A DNA stretch of 64,000 nt from Beijerinckiaceae bacterium. Lineage in GTDB: Bacteria; Pseudomonadota; Alphaproteobacteria; Rhizobiales; Beijerinckiaceae. Location: positions 1 to 64,000 of the forward strand of contig WSYC01000005.1 of NCBI GenBank assembly GCA_009773635.1, read 5' to 3'. The notes beneath the pieces are model-generated. The model searched no databases. It saw nothing but the letters and a program-made list of their open reading frames with translations, and was not told where the DNA came from. Numbering within the stretch: position 1 is the first letter of the stretch; each line of letters opens with the position of its first letter. This document shows positions 32,692 through 42,729 of this stretch, piece after piece. A program made the translations under genes and the position numbers.

Positions 32692-32728
32692 GAGGCAAGG
32701 GGCTAGGCGAAATTGCGGCCCCTTCCTC
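32692..32728. promoter_or_regulatory. inverted repeat in the divergent intergenic region upstream of the Fe-S protein and DUF4444 genes
   Basis: GAGGcAAGGGGC-N14-GCCCCTTCCTC, 11-bp arms with one bulge. Confidence 0.4.
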
Positions 32729-32784
32729 TTACGTATGGTTTGGCGGCGTGTTCCGCCGCGTTCAGGAATGGTGGCGTGCGCATG

Positions 32785-33537
32785 GACGATTTTCCGGGGG
32801 ATATCACGCACTTCCCGCCGTTGATCACACCGTTCCGCCTGCGTGAACGCGAGGATGCCTTCGCGACGGCACTCAAGGGCGCGGCAGGTGCGGGCGACGA
32901 TTACAAGGGCGCCGGCAGCCTGTTTTATGTCGGGCGCTTCGAACTCATCGAATTCGCGATCGTGCTCGAACCCGAGGAACCGCTGAGGCTGGCACGAAAA
33001 ATCTTCTACGCCGGCATGAACGCGGTCGCGGATGCGCTGGCGGTGCTCTCCCCGCCTGAGAAGAGTGTCCAGTTCCGCTATCCGGGCGCGCTCTATTTCG
33101 ATGGCGCGCTGGTCGGCGGTGCGCGGCTCGGCGTTCCCGCCGGGGCGGATGAAAACGCGCCGCCGGAATGGCTCGTGTTCGGCGCGATGGTGCGGGCGGG
33201 CGGCACGCGCGATTCTGATGCCGGAATGGGGCCGGAAATCACCACCCTTGATGACGAGGGGTTCGACGCCTGGAACCCTGCGGAATTCACGGCCTCGTTC
33301 GCGCGGAACTTTCTCGTCGGCGTCGATTCCTGGACCGAGCGCGGCATGCGCGAGATCGGGCCCAACTATCTCGCCCGGCTGGAGAAGGGCAAGGGCGAAA
33401 CCCGGCGCGGCATCGATGAGAACGGCGATCTGCTCGTGCATGAGGCCGGGCGCGAGGGCGCGCGGCGCATCTCTCTCGTCGACGGCATCAGCCGCGCGGA
33501 ATGGTTTGATCCGTTGCTCAACGAGCCGCGGGGCTGA
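32785..33537 (+). CDS. biotin/lipoate protein ligase-like protein (DUF4444 type)
   Basis: PPLITPFRLREREDAFATALKGAAGAGDDYKGAGSLFYVGRFELIEFAIVLEPEEPLRLARKIFYAGMNAVADALAVLSPPEKSVQFRYPGALYFDGALVGGARLG; family assigned by recollection. Confidence 0.7.
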   Translation, partial: DDFPGDITHFPPLITPFRLREREDAFATALKGAAGAGDDYKGAGSLFYVGRFELIEFAIVLEPEEPLRLARKIFYAGMNAVADALAVLSPPEKSVQFRYPGALYFDGALVGGARLGVPAGADENAPPEWLVFGAMVRAGGTRDSDAGMGPEITTLDDEGFDAWNPAEFTASFARNFLVGVDSWTERGMREIGPNYLARLEKGKGETRRGIDENGDLLVHEAGREGARRISLVDGISRAEWFDPLLNEPRG

Positions 33538-33539
33538 GA

Positions 33540-34109
33540 ATGGCAGTCCTCAAGCTCCTGCGCACCATCCGGCTCGATCCCTCGGACGGTTTTGTCTTCA
33601 CCCGCGCGGCTGAGCCCGGCGAATGGGCTGTCGCCGGCACCTTCCTGTTCTGGGAACGGCCGGTCGAAACCTTGATCGGCAAGGAGCGCACGGCCTTCCG
33701 TTCGGGCCTCCTTGGTGTCGGCAGTTTCGGCTGGTCGACGCTTGCAACCGTCGTCGAGGCCAGCGCGGACGAGCGGGCGGCGCTGGTCGAGCGGCTGGCA
33801 ACGCAACTGGTTGCGCATTGCGGTGCGCCGGATATGGCGGCGGCGCTGGTGGCGGCGGAAGCCGAGGTCGCCTATGCCCAAGAGCTGGCAGAGCCGCCGG
33901 TCGGCACGCTGGTAGCCGTGCATCGTTCGCTCGATAACGGCGAGATCATCGAGCGGTTCCGCACGCTGCTGCCCGGAACCGACGAGCGCCATTCGCGGGT
34001 TTTCAGCTTCGTGGAAGAGCCGGATGATGCCGATGTGATCGAAGAGGCGGTCGATCTTGTCGGCCTTGCCGCAACCGGAACCAAGACCAAGGGGAGCGCG
34101 ACCACGTGA
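33540..34109 (+). CDS. DUF6505-like protein of FDH locus
   Basis: Intact ORF in tight operon (KLLRTIRLDPSDGFVFTRAAEPGEWAVAGTFLFWERPVETLIGKERTAFRSGLLGVGSFGWSTLATVVEA); domain name recalled from conserved FDH neighbourhood. Confidence 0.6.
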   Translation: MAVLKLLRTIRLDPSDGFVFTRAAEPGEWAVAGTFLFWERPVETLIGKERTAFRSGLLGVGSFGWSTLATVVEASADERAALVERLATQLVAHCGAPDMAAALVAAEAEVAYAQELAEPPVGTLVAVHRSLDNGEIIERFRTLLPGTDERHSRVFSFVEEPDDADVIEEAVDLVGLAATGTKTKGSATT

Positions 34110-35110
34110 GTGATTTCTGGGTTTCGAGCGGGCATCACCTCGTCGATCGCGATGCCGGCGGCGGGCTGGTGGTGACCGATGACTATCTCAAGGTCTACTT
34201 CGCCCGGCCCGAACTGGTGCCGCCGCCGGAAGCCTGCCCGGTCGAGCGCGGGCTGCACGCCGCGCTGCTGGCGACGCCACGCATGGCCGTGCCGCCGGAG
34301 GAGATAGCGCTGATTGCGGATGTCGATGCGCGCGAGAACCTCGGCGTGTTCCTCGCGTTTCGTGATCATCTGCTCGCCCATTCCACACTGGAGGCCGCCT
34401 ATCTCGCGCTGGTGCGCGGCGGCATGGGGACCATCCCGCCGCTATTCATCCAGCAATTGACGCACCTTGTTGCCCGCAACGCCTTCGATGGCATCGAGGA
34501 TGCGCGCACCCTCCGGGCGGCGGAATGCTTCTGGCGCACGCAGCGCGTGACCTTCCATGAAGGGTCCGTCCTGCTTGCCGATCAGGAGGCGATCGAAAGC
34601 CACGAGCATGACCGCGACCACTCGCCGCTGCTCAACATGCTCGGTGGGCCGGCGGTGTCGGAACTCGAAGTGCTCACCGATGACAACACCGCAACCTATG
34701 CCGCGCGCTCCGACGCACATGATATGGTGTTCGATCTCACGCATCCGACCGAAGGGCGCCAGGCGCTCGGGCGTGCGATGGCGGTCTGGCTGACGCATCT
34801 GCTGGGATTTTCGCCCGCGTTCGAGCCGGTCGAAAAGCTCGCCGGCGGGAGTTTCGGTTGGTTTCTGGCTCTCGATGCCGAGGGAACGGCCATCGGCAAC
34901 CGCGTCTGGGAGGGGGAGACGCTGCCGGAGGCGGACGCCCGGCGCATCCTCGCGCTCTTCACCTTCACTTTGCCCGATCACCCGCGTATCCTCGCCGGGA
35001 AACGCGGCAGCCGGGCCTTCGCCGTTCTCGGGTCAACCGCCGACCGGCTGGTTCGGATCAAGCCGCAGAACCTGATCGCCGGGCTGCCGCTGGGTCTGGA
35101 CAACGCCTGA
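34106..35110 (+). CDS. DUF6352-like protein of FDH locus
   Basis: GTG start, 4-bp overlap with upstream gene; MSDFWVSSGHHLVDRDAGGGLVVTDDYLKVYFARPELVPPPEACPVERGLHAAL. Confidence 0.6.
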   Translation: MSDFWVSSGHHLVDRDAGGGLVVTDDYLKVYFARPELVPPPEACPVERGLHAALLATPRMAVPPEEIALIADVDARENLGVFLAFRDHLLAHSTLEAAYLALVRGGMGTIPPLFIQQLTHLVARNAFDGIEDARTLRAAECFWRTQRVTFHEGSVLLADQEAIESHEHDRDHSPLLNMLGGPAVSELEVLTDDNTATYAARSDAHDMVFDLTHPTEGRQALGRAMAVWLTHLLGFSPAFEPVEKLAGGSFGWFLALDAEGTAIGNRVWEGETLPEADARRILALFTFTLPDHPRILAGKRGSRAFAVLGSTADRLVRIKPQNLIAGLPLGLDNA

Positions 35111-35121
35111 GAGGGATCGAA

Positions 35122-35628
35122 ATGGCCGAGGAAGCAATCCCCGTTGGCGTCATCGTCGAGAAGCGCAAATCGGCGAGCCCGTGGATCGACCACACCTGGG
35201 GCGCGGTTGCGGTGATGCCCGGCCTGCCAGAAGCCCCCAGGATGACACTGATCGAGAAGGTTGGCGATACCGAACGCTATTATCTCGGCGCGTCCACCAT
35301 CGTGCTTGCCTCAATTGATACCGCGCAATACCGCGACAACCTGATGAGCGGCGCGCCAAAGATCTGGGTCGTTATGCGTGAGGAGGAGCCGGAAGGCGGG
35401 CTCTCGCTGGTGACCGTGACGGCTGATCCGACCGAGGGCGAGGCCAACACCGAGACCGGGTCTAACCTCGTCGATTTCGTGCCGATGCTGCCGGAGATTG
35501 CGGCTGAAATCGCCGCCTTTGTCGATGAACATCACATCGAGCGTGAATTCTACAAGCGCAAGCGCGACAAGACCGATCGCGAGGCTTTCGGGCGCCGCAA
35601 GGGCGGGCTGGACGGAGAGCGCGGATGA
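35122..35628 (+). CDS. DUF3305 domain protein
   Basis: IPVGVIVEKRKSASPWIDHTWGAVAVMPG...WVVMREEEPEGGLSLVTVTADPTEGEA. Confidence 0.75.
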   Translation: MAEEAIPVGVIVEKRKSASPWIDHTWGAVAVMPGLPEAPRMTLIEKVGDTERYYLGASTIVLASIDTAQYRDNLMSGAPKIWVVMREEEPEGGLSLVTVTADPTEGEANTETGSNLVDFVPMLPEIAAEIAAFVDEHHIEREFYKRKRDKTDREAFGRRKGGLDGERG

Positions 35629-36314
35629 GCCACGAGGACACGAGGCGCGAGGAGGGGTTCCTGTCACGCTGGTCGAAGCGCAAACGCGCCGGTGTTGCCG
35701 AGGAGGCGGCCGCATCGTCGCCAGCCCTTGTCGAGGGCGCGCCGGCTGCGCCACCCGCCGTTGAGCCCGAGCGGGAGTTCGATCTCGCTTCGCTGCCCTC
35801 GCTCGACGAGCTGACGGGGGCCAGCGATATCAGCGTGTTCCTGCAGAAGGGCGTGCCGGAGGCGTTGAAGAACGCGGCCTTGCGCAAAGCCTGGGTTCTT
35901 GATCCCATGATCAAGAATCATATTGAGCCGGTGGAATGCGGCTGGGATTTCAACGATCCCACATCCATGGCCGGGTTCGGCCCGCTCGATGCGGATACCG
36001 ATGCCGCTGCCATGCTGCGCCAGATCATGGGCGAGAAGGAGCCGGTCGCTGCCGGAACGGATGCGGCCGAGCCCGCACACCCGGCCCATGCCGATCCAGC
36101 GGATGTCGAGGCGGGCACGGTCGGCACGCCAGACAAGCGCGTCGCGGGGGATGACGCGGATGCCGATAATCCGCCACATGCGCTGTCCTTGCCCTCCGAG
36201 GCCACTGCGATGCCCTTGTCTGTGTCATCGGATGCGGATGAAGCCGTCCAGACCAGCGCGGCGACGCTCCCGCCAATGCGCAAACGGCGGCACGGCGGCG
36301 CGGTGCCCGGCTAG
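35625..36314 (+). CDS. DUF3306 domain protein
   Basis: EEGFLSRWSKRKRA...FDLASLPSLDELTGASDISVFLQKGVPEALKNAALRKAWVLDPMIKNHIEPVECGWDFNDP. Confidence 0.75.
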   Translation: MSHEDTRREEGFLSRWSKRKRAGVAEEAAASSPALVEGAPAAPPAVEPEREFDLASLPSLDELTGASDISVFLQKGVPEALKNAALRKAWVLDPMIKNHIEPVECGWDFNDPTSMAGFGPLDADTDAAAMLRQIMGEKEPVAAGTDAAEPAHPAHADPADVEAGTVGTPDKRVAGDDADADNPPHALSLPSEATAMPLSVSSDADEAVQTSAATLPPMRKRRHGGAVPG

Positions 36315-36356
36315 GGGCAGATTTCCGTTGAAGCCCTAAATTCCTCTTGCAACCCC

Positions 36357-36371
36357 ATAGGGCTGCCCTAT
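36357..36371. promoter_or_regulatory. perfect 6-3-6 palindrome ATAGGG-CTG-CCCTAT upstream of HTH-TorD gene
   Basis: Read directly from sequence; lies 59 nt upstream of the ATG at 36430. Confidence 0.45.
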
Positions 36372-36429
36372 AGTTTCGAACTGTTGTAATTCAAAAGACA
36401 GCGATAATGCTGCTTTGACGGGAATCGGG

Positions 36430-37260
36430 ATGAGAGACGCAGGGCTGCAACACGCTATCCGGGCTGTTGGTGGTATTTCCGCGCTTTCGCGTGTGCTCGG
36501 CATTGCGCAGCCTTCCGTTTCGATCTGGACCAAGGTTCCTGCGGAGCGGGTTCTGGCGGTCGAATCGGCGACATCTGTCCCGCGCTCGGTGCTCCGGCCC
36601 GATCTCTACCCCGCCGGTGATGAGGCCGGGTTGCCGCTTGATCCGGTCGACGAGGTGCGCGCGCGGCTCTACATCCTGTTGTCGCGTCTTGTTCTCAAGG
36701 TGCCGGACGAGCGTCTGCTGATCGATCTGCGCCGTCTTGCCGGCGATGACAGCGCGCTCGGGCAGGCGATCATCGAGCTTGCTGAAAACGCGGATGTGCC
36801 CGGTGCCGAGAAAATCGCCCGCGAGCATTTCAATCTTTTCATCGGGGTCGGGCGCGGCGAGCTGCTGCCCTATGCTTCCTATTACCTCACGGGCTTCCTC
36901 TACGAGCGGCCGCTGGTGCGGGTGCGTCAGGACATGAAGCGCATCGGGATCGAGCGCGGCGAAGGACTGAGCGAGCCCGAGGATCACATCGGCTTCCTGC
37001 TGGAATCGATGGCGGGGTTGATCACCCGGAAGTTCGCGGCGGAGCCATCAGAGGAAAAGCGGTTTTTCACCCGCCACATCGAGCCTTGGGCGGAGCGGTT
37101 CTTCGAGGATTTGACCAAGGCCGAGGCGGCAGGGTTCTACCGCGCCGTCGGGCAATTGGGGCAGGAATTCATGCGGATCGAGCGCGAGGCTTTCGCGCTT
37201 GAGACCGAGCTGGATGAGGACGCGGAAGCGTCGACGGAAAAAGAGGGAGAAACGGCATGA
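36430..37260 (+). CDS. N-terminal YdaS/Cro-type HTH fused to TorD-family molecular chaperone
   Basis: HTH: LQHAIRAVGGISALSRVLGIAQPSVSIWTKVPAERVLAVESATSVPRSVLRPDLYP; TorD domain: ARLYILLSRLVLKVPDERLLIDL...EHFNLFIGVGRGELLPYASYYLTGFLYERPLVRVRQDMKRIG...PEDHIGFLLESMAGL. Confidence 0.8.
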   Translation: MRDAGLQHAIRAVGGISALSRVLGIAQPSVSIWTKVPAERVLAVESATSVPRSVLRPDLYPAGDEAGLPLDPVDEVRARLYILLSRLVLKVPDERLLIDLRRLAGDDSALGQAIIELAENADVPGAEKIAREHFNLFIGVGRGELLPYASYYLTGFLYERPLVRVRQDMKRIGIERGEGLSEPEDHIGFLLESMAGLITRKFAAEPSEEKRFFTRHIEPWAERFFEDLTKAEAAGFYRAVGQLGQEFMRIEREAFALETELDEDAEASTEKEGETA

Positions 37261-37469
37261 GCACGAAGACAGACGAGCCGCGCACGGGCGTAGACGCCTC
37301 GCGTCGCACCTTCCTCCGGGCCGGCCTCGCCGGGGCTTCGGTAGCCGCAGCGGCGACCGGTGCTGCCGTGACGCCGGTGCAGGCTGCCGAGAGCGACGCC
37401 GACAAGAAAAAGGCGCGCTACAAGGAAACCGACCACGTCAAGAAATACTACGCGACCAACCGTTACTGA
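37257..37469 (+). CDS. formate dehydrogenase region small TAT-signal protein
   Basis: 70 aa with SRRTFLRAGLAGASVAAAATGAAVTPVQA twin-arginine motif, between torD-like and fdhA. Confidence 0.85.
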   Translation: MSTKTDEPRTGVDASRRTFLRAGLAGASVAAAATGAAVTPVQAAESDADKKKARYKETDHVKKYYATNRY

Positions 37470-37479
37470 GGGAAACGCC

Positions 37480-40426
37480 ATGCTGATCAAGCGTAGGGAA
37501 AACAACACCAAGGACGGGCTCGCGGCGCGCGGGTTGCTGGCGCAGAGCCTCGCGTCCACCGGCGCGGAGCGGCTCGACCGCCGCGCGTTTCTGCGGCGCT
37601 CCGGCCTCGCGGCAGGCGGGCTTGCCGCCATCGGCTCGCTCGGGCTGAGTTCGGTGCGCGAGGCGAAAGAAGAACATCTGCACGCATTGCTCCGTCGGCT
37701 GCACGGTGACGGCGGAAGTGCAGGAAGGCGTCTGGGTCGGGCAGGAGCCGTCCTGGGACAGCCCGATCAACCGCGGCACGCATTGCGCCAAGGGCGCGTC
37801 GGTGCGCGAGCTGGTCAAGGGCGAGCGTCGCCTGAAATACCCGATGAAGCTCGTCAACGGTGAGTGGACCCGGATTTCCTGGGATGTCGCCTTCGATGAA
37901 ATCTCGAAGAAGATGCTGGAAATCCGCGCAAAGTCCGGGCCGGAATCGGTGTGGTTCCTCGGTTCGGCGAAATTCTCGAACGAGGGTGCCTATCTTTTCC
38001 GCAAGTTCGCGGCCTATTGGGGCACCAACAACGTCGATCATCAGGCGCGTATCTGCCACTCGACCACGGTCGCGGGCGTCGCGAACACCTGGGGCTATGG
38101 CGCGCAGACGAACTCCTACAACGATATCCGCAATTCCAAGACCATGATCATCATGGGCGGCAACCCCGCGGAAGCGCATCCGGTTTCGCTCCAGCACGTG
38201 CTCTCCGGCAAGGAGATCAACCGCGCGAACCTGATCGTCATCGATCCGCGCATGACCCGTACCGCCGCGCATGCGACCGAATACGTCCGCATGCGGCCAG
38301 GCACGGATATCCCGGTGATCTGGGGCATGCTGCACCACATCTTCAAGAACGGCTGGGAGGACAAGGCCTTCATCCAGCAGCGTGTCTACGGCATGGACAT
38401 GGTGAGAAAAGAGGTCGAGAAGTGGACCCCGGCCGAAGTCGAGCGCGTCACCGGCATCCCGGGCGCGCAGCTTGAGAAGGTCGCCAAGACGTTTGCCACC
38501 GAGAAGCCCTCGACGCTGATCTGGTGCATGGGCGCGACGCAGAAGACCGTCGGCACCGCCAACGTGCGCGCGTTCTGCACGCTGCTGCTGGCCACCGGCA
38601 ACGTCGGCGCGCCGGGCACGGGCGCAAACATCTTCCGCGGCCATTGCAACGTGCAGGGTGCAACGGATCTGGGTGTCGATATCGGTACGCTGCCGCTCTA
38701 TTACGGCCTCGACGATGGTGCCTGGAAGCATTGGGCCCGCGTCTGGGAAACCGATTTTGACTGGTTCAAGAGCCGGTTCGACACCACCAAGGCGCCGGAC
38801 GGCAAGGACATCTCGATGATGGGAGTGCCCGGCATTCCCTCGACGCGCTGGTTCGATGCCGTCACCCTGCCGAAGGATCAGGTCGCCCAGCGCGATAACC
38901 TGAAGGGCGTGTTCGTGATGGGCCATGGCGGCAACTCCATCCCGCGCATGCCGGAAATGACCAAGGGCCTCGAAGCGCTCGAACTGATGGTCGTGTGCGA
39001 TCCGCACCCGACGACCTTCGCGCACATCTCGAACCGCAAGAACGGCACCTACCTCCTGCCGATGTCGACGCAGTTCGAATGCTCGGGCTCGCGCACGGCG
39101 TCGAACCGCTCGCTCCAGTGGGGCGAGAAGGTTGTCGAGCCCATCTTCGAGAGCGCGAACGATTACTGGGTGATGCACACCTTCGCGCAGAAACTCGGTT
39201 TCGCCGACAAGATGTTCAAGAACATCACGATGGTGAAGGGCAAGTTCGGCATGGAGCCGGAGGCGGAATCCGTGCTGCGCGAGATCAATCGCGGCGGCTG
39301 GTCGACGGGCTATTGCGGCCAGTCGCCCGAGCGCCTCAAGGCGCACATGAAGAACCAGGACAAGTTTGATCTGGTGACGCTGCGTGCGCCCAAGGATGCC
39401 CCGGCGGAAGTTGCCGGTGATTACTATGGCCTGCCCTGGCCGTGCTGGGGCACGCCGGAGTATCGCCACCCCGGCACGCACCAGCTTTACAACACCAACC
39501 TGCACGTCAAGGACGGCGGCGGCACCTTCCGCGCCCGCTTCGGCGTGGAATACGACGAGCCGCAGGCCGATGGCACGAAGAAGAAGATCAACCTCCTCGC
39601 CGAAGGTTCCTTCTCCAAGGATTCCGAACTCAAGGACGGCTACCCGCAGTTCACCTACGGCGTGCTCAAGAAGCTTGGCTGGGACAAGGATCTTACCGAG
39701 GCTGAAAAGGGCGTGATCGAGAAGATCGGCGGCAACGCGCCTGATGGCGTGTCGTGGGCGATTGATCTCTCGGGCGGCATCCAGCGCGTTGCGCTCGAAC
39801 ATGGCTGCATCCCGTTCGGCAACGGCAAGGCGCGCGTCAATGCCTGGCAGTTGCCGGACCCGGTGCCTGTCCATCGCGAGCCGATCTACACCCCGCGCAC
39901 CGATCTCGTCGCGCAATACCCGACGCGGCCGGACTACAAGCACTTCCGCCTGCCGAACATCGGCTTCACCGTGCAGAAGGCGGCCGTGGACAAGGGAATC
40001 GCGAAGGAATTCCCGATCATCCTCTCCTCCGGTCGTCTGGTCGAATACGAGGGGGGCGGCGAGGAAACCCGCTCGAACCCCTGGCTTGCCGAACTCCAGC
40101 AGGACATGTTCGTCGAGATCAGCCCGGCGGATGCTGCGGATCGCGGCATCAAGGATGGTGGCTGGGTCTGGGTCACCGGCCCGGAGAACGGCTCGAAGGC
40201 GCGCATGAAGGCGCTCGTCACCGAGCGTGTCGGCAAGGGTGTCGCCTGGATGCCGTTCCACTTCGGTGGCTGGTTCATGGGCGAGGATCAGCGCTCGAAA
40301 TATCCGAAGGGCGCGGATCCGTTCGTGCTCGGTGAAAGCGTCAATACGATCACGACCTATGGCTACGACCCCGTGACCGGGATGCACGAAGGCAAGGTCA
40401 CGCTTTGCCAGATCCGCGCAGCGTAA
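37480..40426 (+). pseudogene. fdhA: formate dehydrogenase alpha subunit, frameshifted near 37663-37672 (or assembly artefact)
   Basis: TAT leader (RRAFLRRSGLAAGGLAAIGSLGLSSVREA) in frame of ORF 37480; KKNICTHCSVGCTVTAEVQEGVWVGQEPSWDSPINRGTHCAKGAS in frame of ORF 37706..40426; remainder intact incl. ARICHSTTVAGVANTWGYGAQTNSYNDI. Confidence 0.88.
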
Positions 40427-40438
40427 GGAGCAACACAC

Positions 40439-41035
40439 ATGGCCCGTATGAAATTCCTGTGCGACGCGGATCGCTGCATCGAGTGCAACGCCTGCGTCAC
40501 CGCCTGCAAGAACGAGCATGAAGTGCCGTGGGGCATCAACCGCCGCCGCGTCGTCACGCTCAACGACGGCAAGCCGGGCGAACGCTCGGTCTCGATGGCC
40601 TGCATGCACTGCACCGATGCGCCCTGCGCCTCGGTGTGCCCGGTGAGTTGCTTCTACACCACGGCGGATGCGGTGGTGTTGCACTCCAAGGACCTGTGCA
40701 TCGGTTGCGGCTACTGCTTCTACGCCTGCCCGTTCGGCGCACCGCAATATCCCAAGACCGGCAACTTCGGCTCGCGCGGCAAGATGGACAAGTGCACCTA
40801 TTGCGCCGGCGGCCCGGAGGACGACAACAGCCAGGCTGAACTCGACAAATACGGCCGTAACCGTCTTGCCGAGGGCAAACTGCCGCTCTGCGCCGAGATG
40901 TGCTCGACCAAGGCGTTGCTTGCCGGTGATGGCGATATCATCGCCTCCATCTACAAGGAACGCGTTGCCAAGCGCGGCTATGGCTCCGGTGCCTGGGGCT
41001 GGAAGGTCGCCTACAAGGAGACGATCGCGATCTGA
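40439..41035 (+). CDS. fdhB: formate dehydrogenase beta (iron-sulfur) subunit
   Basis: CIECNACVTACKNEHEVPWGINRRRVV; CMHCTDAPCASVCPVSCF; CIGCGYCFYACPFGAPQYP. Confidence 0.92.
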   Translation: MARMKFLCDADRCIECNACVTACKNEHEVPWGINRRRVVTLNDGKPGERSVSMACMHCTDAPCASVCPVSCFYTTADAVVLHSKDLCIGCGYCFYACPFGAPQYPKTGNFGSRGKMDKCTYCAGGPEDDNSQAELDKYGRNRLAEGKLPLCAEMCSTKALLAGDGDIIASIYKERVAKRGYGSGAWGWKVAYKETIAI

Positions 41036-41116: not shown

Positions 41117-42130
41117 ATGACTTCGATGCTCTCCAAAGTGATACGGACAGGACTTCTCTCGCTGGTTTTCGGGCTTTTCGTGGTGGCCATGCCAGCCTCC
41201 GCGCAACAGCCTTCAAGCGTCAATCCCACAGCGCAATCGGTGAAGGAAGCGCAGCTTCTCGACGCGCTCAAGCCGGGCCAGTCGCTGGCCGGACGAGTTT
41301 CCATCCCGAACAAGGATGCGGCGAACCTCATCCAGCCGGGACGTGACTGGCGCGCCTTCAATCAGGAAACACTGCCGCGCATCGGCACGATCGCCATCCT
41401 CGGCGTGCTCGCCCTGCTGGTGCTGTTCTACCTCGTTCGTGGCAAGATCCGGATCGACGCCGGCCCGTCACAGATGCGGATCACGCGCTTCGGCTCGGTA
41501 GATCGCTTCGTCCACTGGCTGACGGCGACGAGCTTCATCGCGCTGGCGATCACCGGCGCGAATGTCACCTTCGGCAAATCCGTGCTGATGCCCATGATGG
41601 GACCTGAAGCTTTTTCGGCCTGGTCTGGCATGGCCAAGCTGATCCACAACTACGTCGGCTTCGCCTTCATGGCCGGTGTGGCGCTCACCTTCCTGATCTG
41701 GGTGAAGGACAATATCCCCGGCGCTACGGACCTTAAGTGGATTCTGGTGGGTGGCGGGCTCCTGTCGAAGGGCACGCATCCGCCAGCCAAACGCTTCAAC
41801 GGCGGCCAGAAGATCGTGTTCTGGAGCGTGGTTCTCGGCGGCGCCTTCCTGTCGCTCTCGGGCTGGCATCTGCTGTTCCCGACGGCTGAGGGCATGGCGG
41901 AAGCCCAGTGGCATGCAACATTGCATGGCACGGTCGCTTTCGTGATGACCGCCCTCATCATTGGCCATATCTATATCGGCTCGGTTGGCATGGAAGGCGC
42001 GTTTGACGCGATGGCTTCCGGCGAGGTCGACCTCAACTGGGCCAAGGAGCATCATTCGCTCTGGGTCAAGGAAGAGATGGAGCGCAAGTCTGGCTCGCGC
42101 ATTTCCGGAGCGGCGCAACCTGCCGAATGA
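41117..42130 (+). CDS. fdhC: formate dehydrogenase gamma (cytochrome b556) subunit
   Basis: Signal peptide; FGSVDRFVHWLTATSFIALAITGANVTFGKSVLMPMMGPEAFSAWSGMAKLIHNYVGF; GGQKIVFWSVVLGGAFLSLSGWHLLFP. Confidence 0.9.
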   Translation: MTSMLSKVIRTGLLSLVFGLFVVAMPASAQQPSSVNPTAQSVKEAQLLDALKPGQSLAGRVSIPNKDAANLIQPGRDWRAFNQETLPRIGTIAILGVLALLVLFYLVRGKIRIDAGPSQMRITRFGSVDRFVHWLTATSFIALAITGANVTFGKSVLMPMMGPEAFSAWSGMAKLIHNYVGFAFMAGVALTFLIWVKDNIPGATDLKWILVGGGLLSKGTHPPAKRFNGGQKIVFWSVVLGGAFLSLSGWHLLFPTAEGMAEAQWHATLHGTVAFVMTALIIGHIYIGSVGMEGAFDAMASGEVDLNWAKEHHSLWVKEEMERKSGSRISGAAQPAE

Positions 42131-42216: not shown

Positions 42217-42729
42217 ATGCGGATCATCGGCCTTGTCGGGTGGAGTGGCGCGGGCAAGACGACGCTGATCACACGGCTCATCCCGACGCTGATCGCACGC
42301 GGGCTCTCGGTATCAACGCTCAAGCATGCGCACCATCAGTTCGATGTCGATCACCCCGGCAAGGACAGCCATGAGCATCGGCTGGCAGGATCAACCGAAA
42401 CGCTGATCAGTTCCGGCCGGCGGTTCGCGCTCATGCACGAGTTGCGCGGCGCGCCGGAATGGCCGCTTCCGGCGCTGCTGGGCAAGCTCAGCCCGGTCGA
42501 TCTCGTGTTGATTGAGGGTTTTAAGCGCGAAAAGCACCCCAAGATCGAAATTTACCGGGCCGAGAATGCCAAGTCGCCGCTGCACCCGGCTGACCCGATG
42601 ATCCGCGCGATCGCGACCGATCACGTTTTTCCGGGGATCAGTCTGCCGCAGGTAGGGCTTGACGAGATCGACGCGATTGCCAATCTCGCAATCACTCTCG
42701 CCATGCCCGTCGAGACGATCTTTCCCTGA
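42217..42729 (+). CDS. mobB: molybdopterin-guanine dinucleotide biosynthesis protein B
   Basis: MRIIGLVGWSGAGKTTLITRLIPTLIARGLSVSTLKHAHHQFDVDHPGKDSHEHRLAGSTETLISS. Confidence 0.95.
   Translation: MRIIGLVGWSGAGKTTLITRLIPTLIARGLSVSTLKHAHHQFDVDHPGKDSHEHRLAGSTETLISSGRRFALMHELRGAPEWPLPALLGKLSPVDLVLIEGFKREKHPKIEIYRAENAKSPLHPADPMIRAIATDHVFPGISLPQVGLDEIDAIANLAITLAMPVETIFP

Follow-up and report, generated by a model that had tools for sequence, protein, structure and literature searches.

A TorD-type chaperone fused to a YdaS/Cro-type domain: a predicted autoregulator of alphaproteobacterial formate dehydrogenase operons

A gene within a formate dehydrogenase (FDH) operon of a Beijerinckiaceae bacterium encodes a TorD/DmsD-type chaperone fused to a Cro-type repressor domain (HTH-TorD), and a palindrome ahead of the gene appears to be the operator which this protein recognises. 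We place the probability that HTH-TorD binds the predicted operator directly and autoregulates at about 0.85, judged from sequence comparison and structural models; the palindrome is present with almost every fusion of this type and its letter tracks a recognition-helix residue, and for this reason the protein very probably controls its own operon. The DNA examined, here called the window, is the whole stretch of 64,000 nt that was analysed. An earlier sequence-only reading had raised the idea that this chaperone may also be a DNA-binding regulator, and the idea is now strongly supported by the modelled Cro fold, retention of the HTH, an HTH-linked palindrome and base/residue covariation; the operator and the HTH-MobB fusions described below were absent from that reading.

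Results

Domains of HTH-TorD

The HTH-TorD gene (36430–37260, + strand; 276 aa), delimited by its open reading frame, Pfam matches and models, opens with ATG, and the start (MRDxGL) was kept in congeners. The sequence-only reading had assigned the N-terminal ~60 residues to a YdaS/Cro-type HTH and the remainder to a TorD/DmsD-like chaperone domain, and both assignments held. The YdaS profile PF15943 matched residues 6–61 (36445–36612, + strand; E 7e-14) with 51.8 bits, passing its curated cut-off of 30; the P22_Cro profile PF14549 matched with E 1e-5 and 25.7 bits, under its own cut-off of 30.2. Among PDB sequences, the N-terminus matched Xfaso 1 Cro best (3bd1, E 1e-5). An AlphaFold2 model of residues 1–67 (pLDDT 90) showed a confident Cro fold of five helices (residues 4–13, 16–23, 27–31, 38–48 and 52–55), for which the top PDB structural match was again 3bd1 (TM 0.77), followed by other Cro/CI proteins. 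The recognition helix was placed at residues 27–31 (QPSVS; 36508–36522, + strand) from the helix in the model and the covariation of residue 29. The HTH has been retained by clearly more than a hundred distinct relatives; 14 diverse fusions share, without exception, Gly14-Gly15, Leu19, Gln27, Trp33 and most of the LRPDxY motif. The sequence-only reading had named lack of an HTH fold and lack of the HTH in homologues as refuting its idea; both conditions were checked, and neither refuted it.

The chaperone domain of the TorD/DmsD/NarJ type takes up about residues 72–262 (36643–37215, + strand), of which residues 106–226 were covered by PF02613 (Nitrate_red_del; E 4e-30). The full-length model (pLDDT 77, from a shallow alignment) gave matches to YcdY, DmsD and NarJ, in keeping with the all-helical fold of the family, and a separate match to Cro. 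The protein did not reach the NCBIfam equivalog cut-offs for TorD (59.6 bits versus 132) or DmsD (49.6 versus 162), and we therefore regard it as a member of the chaperone family, not as TorD or DmsD proper.

Gene neighbourhood

The gene stands between DUF3306 and the TAT-leader gene with fdhA, as the earlier reading had it. The upstream neighbour, identified by a profile match, is the DUF3306 gene (35625–36314, + strand), separated from HTH-TorD by 115 nt; directly downstream are the gene for the formate dehydrogenase region TAT-leader protein (TIGR02811 profile match; 37257–37469, + strand), the start of which overlaps the torD stop, and fdhA for the catalytic subunit (37480–40426, + strand; profile and frame comparison), so that the chaperone gene adjoins a TAT-exported molybdoenzyme. 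Thereafter follow fdhB for the iron-sulfur subunit (40439–41035, + strand; recognised by 4Fe-4S cysteine motifs, with fdh3B at this place in the parallel Bradyrhizobium operon), fdhC for the cytochrome b subunit (41117–42130, + strand; profile match), mobB (42217–42729, + strand; unfused in the window and joined to an HTH of this kind in some relatives) and moeA, with mobA and fdhD on the opposite strand. The operon encodes a periplasmic formate dehydrogenase. A Bradyrhizobium plasmid has the same gene order, from ferredoxin and lipoate-ligase-like genes through fdhC, and its counterpart of HTH-TorD is annotated merely as "TorD family". Ahead of the FDH genes in the window (32713–35628) are lipoate/biotin-ligase-like, DUF6505, DUF6352 and DUF3305 genes, in the same order as in Bradyrhizobium (locus L117).

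The fdhA gene of the window is frameshifted: compared to close relatives, 38 nt are absent between the TAT leader and the first Fe-S cysteine motif, and this deletion puts the leader frame (37480–37863) out of frame with that of the body (37706–40426). Since fdhA was intact in all 11 congeners read, the frameshift is either a private disruption or an assembly error.

Predicted operator and promoter

The palindrome CATAG-N7-CTATG was first noticed on reading the regions upstream of type A HTH-TorD genes, i.e., those with the HTH type of the window. The predicted operator in the window is a 17-bp palindrome, CATAGGGCTGCCCTATA (CATAG-GGCTGCC-CTATA; 36356–36372, not assigned to a strand), found by palindrome search within the 115-nt gap ahead of the gene and kept in relatives; it was the sole match to CATAG-N7-CTATG with one mismatch or none in the 64 kb. 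A sigma70-like promoter sequence, TTGCAA-16-TATAGT (36347–36374, + strand), encloses the predicted operator, which fills the spacer and −10 of this sequence in the window and in most congeners examined. Overall, 50 of 144 sites were overlapped by a sigma70-like promoter versus 3% in shuffles, and about two thirds of the sites were without overlap by a recognisable one. At some fused loci (L005, L123, L128, L169 and L272) two operator copies were seen upstream, in several cases about 15 or 45–55 nt apart.

Copies of the core ATAG-N7-CTAT numbered three in the 3.24-Mb genome of the window, the other two being inside coding sequence, and 2–11 per genome among the genomes counted, about equal to a reversed control pattern. 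A wide regulon is therefore unlikely, and the near-uniqueness of the core points to autoregulation instead. Where the upstream half of the operon begins (lplA), neither a promoter-like sequence nor the operator was found. The stand-alone YdaS genes that were read carried other HTH variants, and CATAG-N7-CTATG was not found upstream of them.

Presence of the operator with the HTH

We examined if the palindrome accompanies the HTH or the torD operon, using 145 distinct fusions with the HTH type of the window (the type A set) and an upstream search span of 320 nt. A symmetric core, ATAG-N7-CTAT or ATAA-N7-TTAT, was upstream in 140 of the 145: 118 had ATAG-N7-CTAT, 22 had ATAA-N7-TTAT, 4 had one half of each, and 1 had none. 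The sole fusion without a site (L187) has a degenerate HTH that has lost Trp33 and the VPAER motif. In a first pass ATAG-N7-CTAT was present in 78 of 83 distinct type A fusions and in none of 40 unfused torD loci, and 0.4% of composition shuffles of those 83 upstream regions contained a site. The symmetric core was likewise absent from all 64 distinct unfused torD loci, one of which had a mixed core; this unfused set takes in genes that share a genus, or indeed a genome, with fused genes (L154–L156). The intergenic gap ahead of torD did not split cleanly between fused and unfused loci. Strict independent pairs on the TorD tree, comparing HTH and operator, gave two supported pairs, a number too small to reach significance, and none in the wrong direction.

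Covariation of recognition-helix residues and half-site bases

The strongest of all residue-base pairs was residue 29, the third in the recognition helix, with half-site base 5 (z 32.7). Proteins with Ser, Thr or Pro at residue 29 had G at base 5 on both halves in 114 of 116 cases; for those with Ala (n=23), A was on both halves in 19, the site was mixed in 3, and G was present in 1. Residue 17 with base 1 ranked second (Arg with GATA instead of CATA; z 17.1) and residue 32 with base 6 third (z 15.8), and all three residues are in or beside HTH helices 2 and 3. When each cluster at 60% identity was reduced to a single sequence (20 in all), residue 29 and base 5 again ranked first, with G on both halves for 15/15 Ser/Thr proteins and A on at least one half for 5/5 Ala proteins (one of these mixed). 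Exceptions included an Ala29 protein that retains a G site (L231) and a few Ser29 proteins with mixed or A sites (L219, and L273, whose HTH sequence is apparently damaged). For residue 29 the strict test had four supported independent pairs, again too small a number to reach significance, with none in the wrong direction; parsimony counted nine changes at residue 29 and seven at base 5, so that the rule was not set once and inherited. From these data we predict a specificity switch between recognition helix and operator, Ser29 reading G5 and Ala29 reading A5.

A second HTH type and HTH-MobB fusions

Ten TorD fusions carry a second HTH type, longer and with a different recognition helix (QANVWHWL or similar), and shortly ahead of their starts is ACAAA-N4-TTTGT, exact in 8/10 and with one mismatch in 2/10. 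The CATAG site was absent upstream of all ten, and ACAAA-N4-TTTGT was absent upstream of every type A gene. Loci where a different YdaS-type HTH was seen fused separately to TorD, with ACAAA-N4-TTTGT upstream, are L009, L010, L012, L035, L036 and L144–L153.

The type A HTH was also fused to MobB instead of TorD in six genomes from the family of genome G363 (loci L159–L164, in G1019, G1069, G1034, G1108, G1059 and G1138), and Pfam confirmed both domains in the three HTH-MobB proteins tested. A CATAG/TATAG palindrome was immediately upstream of two of these genes (L159 and L163); at the other four loci no operator was found within about 6 kb. Among the matches listed in 398 genomes sampled across the order there was no fused MobB copy, and hence this fusion is rare. 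MobB works in the cofactor pathway required by FDH, so in this second partner the HTH module stays with FDH maturation. Genome G1059 has both fusions, an HTH-TorD with Ala29 and an ATAA site (L186) and an HTH-MobB with Ser29 and an ATAG site (L163), as if the two protein-operator pairs were insulated from one another. At another locus (L111, G016 C86, − strand) a YdaS-type HTH was in a single open frame with an apparent NAD(P)HX epimerase/dehydratase, the latter identified by eye, possibly another HTH-enzyme fusion.

Distribution and history

The nearest named relatives of the window genome are Rhabdaerophilum and related Rhizobiales. The HTH-TorD fusion was present in 15 of 17 genomes of its genus and in 67 of 298 sampled genomes of its family; it was frequent in the family of G363, and occurred also in other families of the order and, beyond this order, in a few more families. 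A phylum-wide sample showed no fusion outside the Alphaproteobacteria, and the majority of alphaproteobacterial fdh-linked torD genes are unfused. On a TorD tree (a quick tree, with moderate support) type A fell inside a single large group together with unfused members, from which we consider several losses of the HTH probable; types B and C were placed elsewhere, which points to separate fusions.

Discussion

The regulatory role of HTH-TorD is well supported; a sensing role is a plausible idea that goes beyond the present evidence. In the mechanism that we propose, the protein would be both the maturation chaperone of the periplasmic formate dehydrogenase and the autoregulator of torD, the TAT-leader gene and fdhABC. 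Two HTH domains, presumably as a dimer, would bind the palindrome at 36356–36372. With the spacer and −10 of the promoter covered by this site, a bound protein should keep RNA polymerase off, and synthesis of chaperone and enzyme would then stop once the chaperone, free or loaded, had reached a given level. That the torD-fdh unit is repressed is likely, since YdaS of prophage CP-933P binds specific operators and represses (PMC8630535). The affinity of the protein for DNA may in addition be changed by its client (the TAT leader or apo-FdhA) or by cofactor status, and such a switch is plausible. If the client-bound form represses, a block in maturation or export would switch the operon off, which makes sense as negative feedback; if the free chaperone represses, the client would induce its own synthesis. 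The wider proposal is that of a maturation-status sensor, its DNA affinity set by FdhA or the TAT leader on the TorD domain (by cofactor supply in the MobB version), with YdaS-type HTHs and their operators recruited several times, on TorD and on MobB; we rate this proposal just short of even odds. If true, formate dehydrogenase transcription would be tuned to the success of enzyme maturation and export.

A serious contender, which we hold to be quite possible at somewhat under even odds, is a plain autorepressor that sets the dosage of chaperone and enzyme, the fusion to TorD being incidental and neither client, leader nor cofactor being sensed. All of the DNA-level evidence fits this equally well, and MobB, whose client differs, has this HTH and operator too; against it, the separate HTH fusions (TorD types A, B and C, and MobB) all involve factors for FDH maturation, a sign that the choice of partner matters. 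That HTH-TorD activates its promoter, as some Cro/CI-type proteins do, is improbable. YdaS/Cro proteins are mostly repressors, and a site filling the spacer and −10, as in the window and most congeners examined, usually blocks polymerase, but beyond the genus of the window it is not clear where the site lies with respect to the promoter.

It is more improbable still that the palindrome belongs to a different regulator kept in the same lineages, with the fused HTH serving dimerisation or client contact. Promoter-proximal palindromes are often bound by unrelated regulators and the strict phylogenetic tests are low in power (2–4 supported pairs), but presence of the site tracks the HTH and not the torD operon, its letters track recognition-helix residues in a manner robust to dereplication, the other HTH type has another palindrome, and two HTH-MobB genes have the same site. 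Finally, it is barely credible that the HTH is what remains of a phage repressor acquired fortuitously, its DNA binding lost: the family is best known from prophages and the fused copy at L187 is degenerate, but the invariant residues of the 14 diverse fusions and the covarying operators argue otherwise, for a vestige would not retain an operator across families.

Direct binding and autoregulation by HTH-TorD would bear on the question of how expression of complex metalloenzymes is matched to the cell's capacity for maturation and export, here for TAT-exported molybdoenzymes, in a system whose chaperone apparently doubles as the transcription factor. Since both an operator and an S29/G5, A29/A5 switch are predicted, the idea is directly testable. 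Among alphaproteobacteria HTH-TorD is widespread (Hyphomicrobiales, Bradyrhizobium among them); in these organisms the oxidation of formate supports methylotrophic and autotrophic growth. The annotation of HTH-TorD only as a TorD family protein leaves the regulatory half invisible. The co-varying HTH-operator pairs also make up a natural data set on the evolution of Cro-type specificity.

Comparison with known systems

HTH-TorD shares fold and sequence family with the YdaS/P22 Cro-type repressors (PF15943, PF14549; Xfaso 1 Cro, 3bd1), and differs from these in being without the short insertion behind the recognition helix. For YdaS of CP-933P, EMSA, footprinting and reporter assays demonstrated repression and binding to specific operators within its promoter region (PMC8630535). 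Unlike such stand-alone prophage regulators, HTH-TorD is a chaperone fusion in a metabolic operon, with its own predicted operator.

FDH-linked TorD/DmsD genes accompanied by DUF3305, DUF3306, the TAT-leader gene and fdhGHI were already described (PMC4464133), and the terms "helix-turn-helix" and "DNA-binding" do not occur in the text of that paper. HTH-TorD resembles these FDH-linked TorD/DmsD/NarJ chaperones (PF02613) in the EPEDH motif of its chaperone domain and in its operon setting (PMC4464133), and its annotated relatives are named simply TorD family. The sequence-only reading was aware of no characterised protein of this architecture, and we likewise found no description of a TorD-HTH or MobB-HTH fusion in the open-access literature; earlier notice elsewhere is possible. 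MobB (PF03205) is a GTP-binding adaptor of Mo-bisMGD synthesis; it bears the same fused HTH in six genomes of one related family, and in the window it is a separate gene.

In PutA, BirA and NadR a single polypeptide is active in a pathway and also represses the pathway's genes, and for this reason its working state can set expression. To our knowledge none of the three is a chaperone for TAT-exported enzymes or molybdoenzymes, and none has a Cro/YdaS domain. By analogy to these enzyme-repressor fusions, HTH-TorD would join a working protein, the chaperone, to a predicted repressor.
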